From: Deltaproteobacteria bacterium
GTDB lineage: Bacteria > Desulfobacterota > Binatia > UBA9968
Direction: 5' to 3'
NCBI GenBank assembly: GCA_009692615.1
Contig: SHYW01000048.1
Location: 1 to 34,658, forward strand
Length of the DNA: 34,658 nucleotides
The notes under the pieces are model-generated. The model searched no databases and was not told the origin of the DNA. It saw only the letters and a program-made list of their open reading frames with translations. This document shows positions 1 through 16,693 of the stretch, piece by piece; position 1 is the stretch's first letter; the number at the start of each line of letters is the position of its first letter. Both the position numbers and the translations under genes were made by a program.

Positions 1-87
1 TGCGGCCTCAACCACGGTGATCTCGCTGCGATATACTCGTTGAATTATGTCTAGTCGTTTCTCGTCTTTCATTGTCAGGGTTGTCAT
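1..87 (-). CDS. Transposase, N-terminal fragment (runs off the left edge)
   Basis: Reading the minus strand from an ATG at 87 gives 29 open codons to the window edge, beginning MTTLTMKDEKRLDIIQRVYR and continuing with a Glu/Val/Ala-rich stretch. The 'MK.E+RL.+IQRV' opening leading toward '..VEAA' is what I remember from helix-turn-helix transposases of the ISNCY type, where a resolvase-like HTH follows. A GGAAGG stretch lies directly before the ATG. The repeats at 95-136 sit where an IS terminus would be expected, which supports the call. Only 29 residues are visible, so the family is tentative; a short regulatory HTH protein is the alternative. Confidence 0.55.
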   Translation of the reverse strand, partial: MTTLTMKDEKRLDIIQRVYRSEITVVEAA

Positions 88-94
88 CCTTCCA

Positions 95-136
95 CCCTGA
101 CATAATTACGTTGCCGTTAACCCCTGACATAATCAC
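95..136. repeat. Probable insertion-sequence terminal repeats
   Basis: CCCTGACATAATTAC (95-109) recurs as CCCTGACATAATCAC (122-136), 27 bp apart, and an inverted partial copy (TTGTCAGGG) lies at 72-80 inside the transposase start. Repeated transposase-binding motifs near one end, just upstream of a transposase ATG, are typical of IS termini. The outer boundary of the element is therefore probably close to 136. The other end is outside the window, so target-site duplication cannot be checked. Confidence 0.5.
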
Positions 137-218
137 TTTGCTACAACACCGAGTAGTTAAGTACCTTGACTCGCAGTAGGTAATCAGTTAGTTTCGGGCA
201 GTTCAAAATACATTTCCC

Positions 219-14021: not shown

Positions 14022-14059
14022 TTCAAGGCTTGCCATTGGCGGCGGAAAAGGCGAATAAA

Positions 14060-14704
14060 GTGAAAGACACGAGTGCGATGGACAGTGTGACAACGGTTAA
14101 GACGAAGTCGACTTTCCGCGAATACGCGGAAGCGATCATGATGGCGCTAATTTTAGCGCTGTTCATCCGAACGTTCATCGTTCAGGCTTTTAAGATTCCC
14201 TCCGGTTCGATGATCCCGACGTTGCAGATCGGCGATCATATACTGGTCAACAAACTCTCTTACGGTGTGCGCATTCCGTTTCTCGAAAAATATTTGCTCG
14301 ACTACTCCAAGCCGGCCCGGGGCGACGTGGTGGTGTTTATTTTCCCCGAAGACGATTCCAAGGATTTTATCAAACGGGTGGTCGGCGTCGCCGGCGACAG
14401 CGTCGAAGTGCGCGCCAAAAAGGTCTTCATCAATGGCAAACCCGTGGATGATTCCCACGCCCATTTCGCGGGCTACGATCCCGCCGCCGGCGGCGCCGGC
14501 AGCGGCGACGACTACGGTCCCAAGACAGTGCCGGATCACCATATCTTCGTCATGGGCGATAACCGCGACCGCAGCTACGACAGCCGCTTTTGGGGTTACG
14601 TCGATTTGAACGCGGTGCGCGGCAAGGCGTTTTTCATTTATTGGTCTTGGGACGGCACGGACCGCTGGGTGCGTTGGGAGCGGCTTGGCAATCTGATTCG
14701 CTAG
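14060..14704 (+). CDS. lepB: Signal peptidase I
   Basis: Membrane serine protease that removes Sec and Tat signal peptides on the outer face of the inner membrane. A transmembrane segment (about 24-41 from the GTG start) leads into IPSGSMIPTL with the nucleophile Ser50. FIKRVVGVAGD supplies the general-base lysine, and GDNRDRSYDSRFWG is the C-terminal box. I chose GTG 14060 because an AAAAGG stretch sits 8 nt upstream; TTG 14030 and ATG 14078 are in-frame alternatives. A Gly/Ala-rich insert before the last box is unremarkable. It follows lepA by 38 bp. Confidence 0.94.
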   Translation: MKDTSAMDSVTTVKTKSTFREYAEAIMMALILALFIRTFIVQAFKIPSGSMIPTLQIGDHILVNKLSYGVRIPFLEKYLLDYSKPARGDVVVFIFPEDDSKDFIKRVVGVAGDSVEVRAKKVFINGKPVDDSHAHFAGYDPAAGGAGSGDDYGPKTVPDHHIFVMGDNRDRSYDSRFWGYVDLNAVRGKAFFIYWSWDGTDRWVRWERLGNLIR

Positions 14705-14763: not shown

Positions 14764-15060
14764 ATGAGCAAAACGCTTAAATGGAGTTTAACGATTCTCT
14801 CGTCATTGATTCTGTTCCTTGTGCTGGTCAACATCTTCATCTCTTTGGGCAACCAGTCGATCCAAAGCGAAGTGGGCGAACGCCAGCAGGTGATCGCTCA
14901 AACCATTCAACTGGAGAACCTCAACCGCCAACTGATCAGCGTGCTCGCCAACCTGGCGCTCAAGACCAACGATGAAGGTTTGAAAAAAGTGCTCGCCGCC
15001 GGCGGCATCAATTTATCGGGCGCCGAGGGCGGGGCCGCGCCGGCGCCGGCCAAGAAATGA
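14764..15060 (+). CDS. Small single-pass membrane protein, module gene A
   Basis: Not recognised. The 98-aa product has a short basic N-terminus (MSKTLK), one hydrophobic helix (about 7-29) with a buried Asn23, and then a long polar helix beginning GNQSIQSEVGERQQVIAQTI and ending near KKVLAAGGI. The Ala/Pro-rich tail ends in KK. Positive residues before the helix predict the C-terminal part to be periplasmic. It lies 59 bp after lepB and 6 bp before gene B. It is about half identical, by eye over about 62 residues, to the gene at 15470, so the locus is duplicated. Confidence 0.8.
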   Translation: MSKTLKWSLTILSSLILFLVLVNIFISLGNQSIQSEVGERQQVIAQTIQLENLNRQLISVLANLALKTNDEGLKKVLAAGGINLSGAEGGAAPAPAKK

Positions 15061-15066
15061 GATGTT

Positions 15067-15441
15067 ATGTCTGACGATAGTGAATTGAGCTTGGATAGCA
15101 AGGTTGCCGCCGGCGTAGTGAGCGCAAAACCGGCGTCGAATCTGCCGTTCTTGCTGACGCTGATCGCGTTGTTTCTCTATTTTGCGTTTCAGTCGCTGTC
15201 GTTGTTTAGCGAGCGCGCTAATATGGGAATGATGAAGGCCAATCAGGACGTGGCGCTGCAAGAAGCCCAGAAAATTCAAAGCCAATTCAAACTGCTGGTG
15301 ACCAAAACCAGCGAGCTCGCCGGCCAAGGCCACGCCGGCGCGAGAATGATCATGGACGGATTGCAAAAGCAGGGCGTCGGCTTCGCCCCGGAAAGCGCCC
15401 CACCCATGCCAGCAACGCCCGTGACTAAGGCGACCAAGTAG
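15067..15441 (+). CDS. Small single-pass membrane protein, module gene B
   Basis: Not recognised. The 124-aa product has an acidic N-terminus of about 25 residues, one hydrophobic helix (about 26-47) with Gln42 near its end (AFQSLSLF), and then a predicted helical stretch with the motif ALQEAQKIQSQ. A Pro/Ala-rich tail ends in TK. It resembles the gene at 15760 (roughly one third identical by eye, with colinear features), but not gene A. It sits between A and A', 6 bp and 28 bp away, so it is almost certainly in the same transcript. Confidence 0.78.
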   Translation: MSDDSELSLDSKVAAGVVSAKPASNLPFLLTLIALFLYFAFQSLSLFSERANMGMMKANQDVALQEAQKIQSQFKLLVTKTSELAGQGHAGARMIMDGLQKQGVGFAPESAPPMPATPVTKATK

Positions 15442-15469
15442 CGCCCGTCTCAATTGCAAGGTAGGGATT

Positions 15470-15763
15470 ATGATCAGCCAGCGCGGTTTAAATTTGTTTG
15501 GCTTTCTGACCTTGATTCTGGTCTTCGTCAACATGTTTTTGTTGGTCGGCAATCAGTCGCTGCAGCAGAGCGTGGCACAACGCCAACAGGTGATCATGCA
15601 AAGCCTGCAAATGCAGGGACCGGCGCGCGAGATCATCGGCGCCATGGCCAACCTGGCGGTGCGCACCGACGACGCCGAGATCAAAAAAGTGCTCGCCAAA
15701 TACGGCATCACGGTGACGGTCACGCAGCAAAATCCCGCGGAGGCGGCGGTGAAGGGCAAATGA
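15470..15763 (+). CDS. Small single-pass membrane protein, module gene A' (paralogue of A)
   Basis: Not recognised. The 97-aa product repeats the design of the gene at 14764: a short N-terminus, one hydrophobic helix (about 7-27) with Asn21 in the same place, then GNQSLQQSVAQRQQVIMQSL, a helical stretch, MANLAVRTDD and KKVLAKYGI. It lacks the Gly/Ala/Pro tail of A and ends AAVKGK. AAGGTAGGGA lies just upstream of the ATG. Its stop overlaps the next start by 4 bp (ATGA, 15760-15763), so A' and B' are translationally linked. Confidence 0.8.
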   Translation: MISQRGLNLFGFLTLILVFVNMFLLVGNQSLQQSVAQRQQVIMQSLQMQGPAREIIGAMANLAVRTDDAEIKKVLAKYGITVTVTQQNPAEAAVKGK

Positions 15764-16125
15764 GCGAAGCGAACTTGGAAGACGACGAAGAAGAAACGTC
15801 GAGCGAAATCGCTGCGCCGGCCAACGGCAACACCGCGCTCACGCTCGTGGTGTTTTCCTGGTGCGCCTGGATGGTGTTTCAAACCGTCCAGCTAGTGCGC
15901 GACCGCGTGCATCTAAACGATCTCAAAGCTAGCCAAGAAGCCGCCCTCCAAGAAGCGACCAAATTCAAAAGCCAAATCGACGGCATCACCGCCGACACCG
16001 CCAAACTCGCCGCCGCCGGCAATCCCGCCGCCCAACGCATCGTGCTCGAACTGCGCAAGCGCGGCTTCAAAGTCGGGGGCGAGACCAAGCCCGCGCCGCC
16101 GCCAGCTACTCAGCCCGCGAAATAA
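15760..16125 (+). CDS. Small single-pass membrane protein, module gene B' (paralogue of B)
   Basis: Not recognised. From the ATG at 15760 (AAGGG a few bases upstream) the product is 121 aa; the frame is open further left but only as a shadow of A'. It has a strongly acidic N-terminus (LEDDEEE), one hydrophobic helix (about 25-46) with Gln41 placed like that of B, and the shared motif ALQEATKFKSQ. A helix follows, then a Pro-rich tail ending in AK. It is the last gene of the long plus-strand run; beyond it lie about 400 bp with no convincing gene. Confidence 0.78.
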   Translation: MSEANLEDDEEETSSEIAAPANGNTALTLVVFSWCAWMVFQTVQLVRDRVHLNDLKASQEAALQEATKFKSQIDGITADTAKLAAAGNPAAQRIVLELRKRGFKVGGETKPAPPPATQPAK

Positions 16126-16536: not shown

Positions 16537-16614
16537 TGGCGTCCCCGACGGGATTTGAACCCGTGTTATCGGCGTGAAAGGCCGGTGTCCTGGGCCGAGC
16601 TAGACGACGGGGAC
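16537..16614 (-). tRNA. tRNA-Glu (anticodon TTC)
   Basis: On the minus strand the gene starts GTCCCCG at 16614 and its acceptor arm closes with CGGGGAC. The anticodon loop is CTTTCAC (TTC), and the T-arm GGGTTCAAATCCC is intact. A discriminator G and an encoded CCA (16537-16539) follow. The D-loop is slightly long. It lies 3 nt downstream of tRNA-Lys and is presumably processed from the same transcript. Confidence 0.95.
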
Positions 16615-16617
16615 GTA

Positions 16618-16693
16618 TGGTGAGCCGTGCTGGATTCGAACCAGCGACCCTCTGCTTAAAAGGCAGATGCTCTACCACCTGAGCTAACGGCTC
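16618..16693 (-). tRNA. tRNA-Lys (anticodon TTT)
   Basis: A 76-nt minus-strand cloverleaf with acceptor GAGCCGT pairing with ACGGCTC, D-arm TTAGCTCAGGTGGTAGAGCA, anticodon loop CTTTTAA (TTT), T-arm GGTTCGAATCC, discriminator A and an encoded CCA (16618-16620). It is the first gene of a two-tRNA unit, and its promoter is probably the one at 16715-16745. Confidence 0.96.

Follow-up and report, generated by a model that had tools for sequence, protein, structure and literature searches.

The window, by which the whole analysed stretch of 34,658 nucleotides is meant, represents contig 48 of a draft genome of 5.0 Mb in 186 contigs. Four real genes, here named A1, B1, A2 and B2, are located downstream of lepB at positions 14764-16125. 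The coordinates, the A-B-A'-B' order and the plus strand given for these four small consecutive genes in an earlier, sequence-only reading were correct. The features of the locus are the following:

14078..14704, plus strand: lepB (signal peptidase I), the upstream neighbour; open reading frame with uncertain start, the frame being open from the TTG at 14030
14764..15060, plus strand: A1, 98 amino acids; membrane helix at about residues 11-29, rod to about residue 68, short helix at 71-79, tail ending in KK
15067..15441, plus strand: B1, 124 amino acids; acidic N-terminal tail, membrane helix at about residues 28-46, rod, short helix, tail ending in ATK
15470..15763, plus strand: A2, a second, divergent A of 97 amino acids; tail ending in KGK; 39 of 89 aligned residues identical to A1
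15760..16125, plus strand: B2, a second, divergent B of 121 amino acids; tail ending in PAK; 36 of 118 aligned residues identical to B1
16001..16101, plus strand: 3' part of B2 with an orphan twin elsewhere in the genome (87% identical DNA at G000:C23:2398-2498)

A1 starts 59 bp past the lepB stop at 14704. A1 and B1 are in the same frame with a spacing of 6 bases, B1 and A2 are separated by 28 bases, and the stop codon of A2 and the start codon of B2 overlap in the sequence ATGA. In codon-position composition A1, B1 and A2 resemble lepA and lepB. The frame at 14078..14704 is presumably a signal peptidase gene; its orthologues, 71-81% identical, adjoin A-B in 11 of the 16 fetched family loci. 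Shortly past B2, on the minus strand at 16537-16693, the window carries genes for tRNA-Glu and tRNA-Lys where 7 relatives have a helicase gene. The first bases of the window (3-151) recur with 99.3% identity, along 149 bp, at the start of another contig (G000:C23:1-149), perhaps owing to a repeat at assembly breaks.

Profiles of A and B were used to search other genomes, and relatives of both were identified in 16 further genomes of the window's family and in 3 genomes of a second phylum, Methylomirabilota. Of the 148 genomes of the class, the A profile matched 17, all of them among the 25 genomes of the family and none among the 123 outside it. Within the 35 genomes of the order the B profile detected the identical 17 family genomes and none of the 10 genomes outside the family. 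Single-sequence searches gave A matches at E 1e-18 or better and B matches at E 2e-4 or better in 17/25 family genomes, A1 and B1 being matched in the same 16 genomes besides their own. The second copies were recovered by the A profile (A2, E 1.3e-33) and the B profile (B2, E 2.5e-40), each of them being itself a row of the respective profile. In a draw of 297 genomes of the phylum each profile matched two genomes, the window's own and G009, and in Methylomirabilota the B profile matched 3 of 95 genomes at E 1e-24 or better and the A profile exactly those 3.

Among the genomes searched with both profiles, 20 contained either gene, and A was located directly upstream of B in every one of them (17/17 in the family and 3/3 in Methylomirabilota), as expected for the two-gene unit suspected earlier; A was not found widely without B in the 35 genomes of the order, the 297 of the phylum draw and the 95 Methylomirabilota. 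In the 16 fetched family loci, for which we picked the start codons, A and B are spaced by -1 to 12 nt. A-B is thus a conserved, uncharacterised two-gene module, and since A and B lie side by side in every genome that has either, they probably form one unit in the cell envelope. Same-frame A and B genes separated by the stop and 1-4 codons were observed in 11 of the 16 fetched family loci and in A1-B1 of the window, where read-through would yield one chain. In a Methylomirabilota genome (G465:C216, L205 about 1486-1820) the B homologue carries one in-frame TAG and the upstream A is intact.

Several weak matches were left uncounted, namely for A in G046 and G054 (E 0.05-0.07) and at second places in G000 (0.085) and G015 (0.007), and for B in G039, G053 and at second places in G009 and G010 (E 0.009-0.06), in the G000:C23 fragment and in the Methylomirabilota genome G535 (E 0.006). 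A scan of a genome-contig collection with A1 turned up no relative. A tblastn search of plasmids with B listed 149 records at E up to 1, the best at E 0.01 over 38% of B and none covering 80% of it; a place on a P. juntendi plasmid (E 0.1, in a stretch without annotated gene) was dismissed on its E-value, and further plasmid searches gave no match at E 0.1. A single viral-contig match to one B was dismissed as lying inside a 1153-residue frame. The only Nitrospirota match of the B profile (1 of 395 genomes, E 2e-4) lies beside ATP synthase genes at a locus where the A profile found nothing; it was discarded as a look-alike, which we take to be ATP synthase subunit b.

The surroundings of the pair were compared between the loci. 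The order lepB-A-B was present in 12 of 17 family genomes (the window and 11 of the 16 fetched loci, following lepA-lepB), and in the remaining five (G009, G012, G016, G022 and G024) the pair was found on a stretch without lepA or lepB, with lepB elsewhere in the genome. The earlier view that the link to lepB is merely positional agrees with this. A helicase gene, which in G003 encodes the Pfam domains DEAD and WH_Lhr, follows B in 7 of the 11 lepA-lepB loci (G003, G008, G014, G015, G017, G020 and G023); other genes follow the pair in the window, G001 and G010, and the contig ends in G004 and G005. The neighbours in the five lepB-free family loci include an NAD-binding oxidoreductase with a hydrolase or a solute-binding protein, GDPD, an NMT1-like protein, an AMP-binding enzyme and UbiD. 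The Methylomirabilota pairs have yet other neighbours, and no LepA or LepB was detected by tblastn in the stretches of 9 to 18 kb read at these 3 loci. Taken over all loci, the neighbours examined comprise lepA, lepB, the Lhr-type helicase, ABC transporter parts, UbiD, GDPD and others, and no neighbour is common to all. As the neighbours change where the pair has moved and lepB is absent at some loci, A-B is a portable unit and LepB not a fixed partner. In another genome of the order, two adjoining LepB-like frames were noted (G028:C1:283104-283739 and 283807-284445).

Eight of the 25 family genomes, which are incomplete drafts, gave no A-B match. Three of them (G006, G007 and G019) have lepB followed, by tblastn, by the same helicase gene with no A-B in between, and the module is therefore dispensable. 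The contig ends at lepB in G002, in G013 the contig retains 305 bases after lepB, within which another frame starts, and G011, G018 and G021 gave no LepB match.

One membrane helix per protein, as read earlier, was borne out, and so were the Asn of the A helix (N23) and the Gln closing the B helix (Q42), which had likewise been pointed out; these features recur in the window's proteins and in nearly every or every aligned row. Each of the four window proteins ends in Lys. Alignments A5 (15 sequences) and A6 (13 sequences) were composed of members picked for spread. Three B sequences were left out of A6 and of the terminal-residue and charge counts: that of G003 (L045), whose C-terminus departs from the family and which was also left out of alignment A2 and entered the trees with 98 residues; that of G005 (L048), which runs off the contig and was also excluded from the A/B distance correlation; and that of G465 with its in-frame stop, which was also excluded from the tree. 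Conserved residues of A (15 rows, L057 numbering) are N26, R43, Q45, Q52, R58, L80 and G84, and those of B (13 rows) are Q45, L49, R53, Q68, Q76, L87, A88, G91, A95 and G106. Most A and B proteins share a Q-(S/T)-x-Q motif or a close form of it at the end of the membrane helix, an Arg 8-9 residues past the first Gln, and a Gly-Ile or similar closing the ordered part. From Gln to Gly, A1 counts 50 residues and B1 counts 61, so that the two differ by 11 residues or about three helical turns. Selection between genomes was estimated from 13 comparisons, with dN/dS values of 0.07-0.51.

The tails vary apart from their last residue, which is Lys in 14/21 A and 14/18 B and Lys or Arg in 19/21 A and 15/18 B, the rows being related and the counts thus not independent events. 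Of the long reading frames used for comparison (207, from 30 sources), 6.3% end in Lys and 10.6% in Arg. In 18 of 21 A sequences the net charge is more positive ahead of the helix than behind it; one sequence shows no difference and two show the opposite. No clear positive-inside signal is seen in B, whose N-terminal side is often acidic, so that the orientation of B is a guess from A. In the best heptad register the polar core fraction is 27% for A and 14% for B, and the hydrophobic contrast is 1.47 for A versus 3.12 for B; given its polar core and weak contrast, a classical coiled coil is not assured for A.

The relation between the two pairs of the window was analyzed by local alignment, trees and codon comparison. 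The A1/A2 alignment scored 189 versus a maximum of 83 in 1000 block-shuffles and the B1/B2 alignment 148 versus a maximum of 87; neither score was reached in 1000 plain or 1000 block shuffles (12-residue blocks), so the similarities A/A' and B/B' stand above every shuffled comparison. The module had been described as tandemly duplicated. The similarity part of this description is real, whereas the placement of copy 2 as sister of copy 1 was rejected (AU p 8.2e-5) and codon identity points to a common DNA history for the two A genes alone. The longest branches of the separate A and B trees belong to A2 and B2. In the joint tree rooted on Methylomirabilota copy 2 lies outside the 17 other family sequences (SH-aLRT 97, bootstrap 92 for that split), and trees with copy 2 inside or outside the family clade tie. 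A1 and A2 use the same codon at 31 of 40 identical residues, where window usage would predict 16.4; this share exceeds that of A1 with any of 13 other genomes (highest 34/64) and likewise that of A2 (highest 18/29); the longest identical DNA runs between them are 15, 12 and 9 bases. For B1 and B2 the count is 16 of 36 residues against an expectation of 15.2, and B2 has a larger share in common with G004 (25/41). The tree could be distorted by a long branch, and the codon count by chance and by codon preference.

Copy 2 is not simply a recent tandem copy, and as it does not group with copy 1, two versions by local duplication are not established. An older second pair with partial gene conversion between the A genes would fit both the tree and the codon results, and a duplication within the genus followed by fast change may instead be the origin. 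Two A-B pairs were seen only in the window's genome; in G004, a genome of the same genus with the pair, the contig stops about 330 bases after B. The orphan fragment at G000:C23:2398-2498 spans 101 bp with 87% identity to the 3' end of B2, and tblastn found no A and no remaining B in the surrounding 9 kb.

Kinship between A and B, which the earlier reading did not bring up, was assessed at the level of profiles. Single-sequence comparisons of A1/B1, A1/B2, B1/A2 and A2/B2 remained at shuffle level. The profiles of the family rows were similar with P 2.4e-4, and with the Methylomirabilota rows added (hhalign) P was 1.5e-5 and the probability 79.8%, with a collinear match over 81 columns. Column-shuffled B profiles (blocks of 8, 12 or 20, or all columns) never reached the real score of 32.8 in 100 trials each, the largest null score being 27.6, and the reversed B profile scored 17.4. 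On these profile comparisons A and B are likely ancient paralogues; shared constraint on membrane rods could contribute to the similarity, which makes common descent likely and not proven. The distances within A and within B correlate (Mantel r 0.89, 0 of 2000 permutations, 19 pairs), species history being included in the correlation.

Two AlphaFold2 models of the joined A-B reading predict two helices per protein, the first 61-66 residues long and the other 9-12. Their mean pLDDT values are 60.9 and 67.4 and their pTM values 0.35 and 0.47; in the second model, computed from one sequence without alignment, the membrane-distal ends of A (residues 61-80) and B (residues 171-200) have pLDDT 84-89. 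The predicted models back the helix plan and contain no confident A-B interface. The A-B unit proposed earlier is supported by the co-occurrence, and the hetero-oligomer is likely; the joined models are of low confidence. Foldseek with these models returned no match at E 0.001 or better, which does not prove a new fold, and the best Z of VIA-align was 4.5.

The earlier reading named no system of this design, and no match above cut-off names A or B in Pfam, NCBIfam, PHROGs or PADLOC; among PDB sequences none was better than E 0.27. The comparison with FtsL-FtsB is one of plan. As proposed for A-B, FtsL-FtsB consists of two short single-pass proteins working as a pair. The FtsL helix is continuous from the membrane into the periplasm, and FtsLB is described as a rod with polar core positions, at 30% compared with the usual 17.6%, and as a tetramer that switches (PMC8749076). 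With 27%, A is similarly rich in polar core positions and B with 14% is not. When 15 A and 13 B sequences were scanned against the Pfam families of FtsL and FtsB (DivIC), one A reached DivIC at the sub-threshold E 0.015 and nothing else appeared at E 0.1. A-B differs from FtsL-FtsB in the mutual resemblance of its subunits, the adjacent genes, the short second helix, the basic-ended tail and the lack of a match in eight family genomes, which, with the caveat of incomplete drafts, speaks against an essential role. On this comparison A-B is like FtsL-FtsB in plan, not in sequence, and is not a member.

PilN and PilO are single-pass inner-membrane partners with periplasmic regions, and a globular domain is a feature of the GspL-GspM/PilN-PilO class. 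GspL and GspM are described as partners of the same kind (PMC3815138). A and B, in contrast, end soon after the rod and have no globular domain. In NCBIfam 2 of 13 B sequences matched GspL at E 0.1 or better (best E 0.0018, sub-threshold), and one of 13 B and one of 15 A sequences matched GspM below threshold; no assignment was made from these. Pilus or secretion genes were not present among the A-B neighbours examined.

On balance, A and B are somewhat more probably than otherwise two subunits of one small inner-membrane assembly, a heteromeric stalk or scaffold that would position or regulate another envelope protein. Support is provided by the co-occurrence, adjacency, A-B profile similarity, conserved residues and basic end observed here, together with the predicted helix plan, and the correlated A and B distances, the dN/dS values between genomes and the charge bias of A also count in its favour; from these we infer the membrane orientation, physical A-B pairing, stoichiometry and scaffold or regulator role. 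The N-terminus of A and of B would lie in the cytoplasm, and one membrane helix each would extend at the outer face into a straight rod some 40-45 residues long. After a turn, a short second helix would end near the conserved Gly-Ile and be followed by the flexible tail with its mostly basic last residue. A and B would share an ancestor and pair in parallel, so that the unit would need both. The resulting short A-B stalk would position or regulate the other envelope protein as FtsL-FtsB or GspL-GspM do, and the two pairs in the window's genome would be two versions of it. Against the stalk stand the joined models with no confident interface, the eight matchless genomes, the guessed orientation of B and the polar core of A, as well as the higher dN/dS between the window copies (0.68 for A and 0.46 for B); moreover, genes kept together could serve one pathway without contact.

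This last point leads to the reading that A and B are separate, co-expressed small envelope proteins, for example accessory subunits of a larger complex or transporter, which do not touch each other. It is a minority possibility: the joined models give no interface, and the neighbours vary between genomes and point to no partner. Against it, the pair co-occurs and is adjacent in all 20 genomes at several different loci, and A and B are similar to each other in the manner of pairing subunits, which often resemble each other.

The heteromeric stalk should also be weighed against an inner-membrane-anchored wall tether, in which the basic C-terminal residue would join or bind peptidoglycan as the last Lys of Braun lipoprotein does, from the opposite membrane. 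A and B resemble Braun lipoprotein (Lpp) in being small helical rods with mostly Lys as last residue, and differ from it in that a membrane helix replaces the lipid anchor and in the lack of a family match. Lpp is described as a trimeric coiled coil whose terminal Lys is bound to peptidoglycan (PMC7156740). The excess of terminal Lys or Arg over the comparison frames favours such a tether, and rod plus tail could, as an inference, span from the inner membrane to the wall. It is nevertheless clearly improbable: no lipobox Cys was seen by eye at the N-termini of the A and B sequences examined, 7/21 A and 4/18 B end in a residue other than Lys and 2 A and 3 B in neither Lys nor Arg, Arg is unable to form the Lpp-type bond, the related rows weaken the counts, and a basic end may just shield the tail from proteases or bind lipids. 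The specific combination of both ideas, an A-B heteromeric stalk with basic, mostly Lys C-termini fixed to the wall, would be a mirror-image Braun lipoprotein tying the wall to the inner membrane, in two isoforms here, and is held to be decidedly improbable.

That A-B is an accessory factor of LepB, or of secretion at that site, is very unlikely. The frequent lepB-A-B order speaks for it, but the pair lies elsewhere in 5 of 17 family genomes, no LepA or LepB is found near the Methylomirabilota pairs, and G006, G007 and G019 have lepB loci without A-B; the idea was rejected on these grounds. The spanins Rz/Rz1 are likewise encoded by two small adjoining genes for proteins with a membrane helix and a rod, and one B orthologue gave sub-threshold Rz-like matches (best E 0.014 in NCBIfam and 0.028 in PHROGs), but a phage lysis-type spanin pair is extremely improbable and was rejected, with one A and one B sequence matching none of 50,697 phage records (tblastn, E 0.1), no lysis context or phage genes noticed in the stretches listed, and neither protein carrying a lipobox or having a lipoprotein partner.

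With A and B, two linked protein families without library match above cut-off are described; in both phyla they behave as a single unit. If A and B do pair, they would represent an envelope stalk that is heteromeric and very small, of a kind otherwise familiar from the machines of division and secretion. The likely common ancestry of A and B and the presence of two pairs in one genome make the module a simple case of a homomeric rod turning heteromeric.
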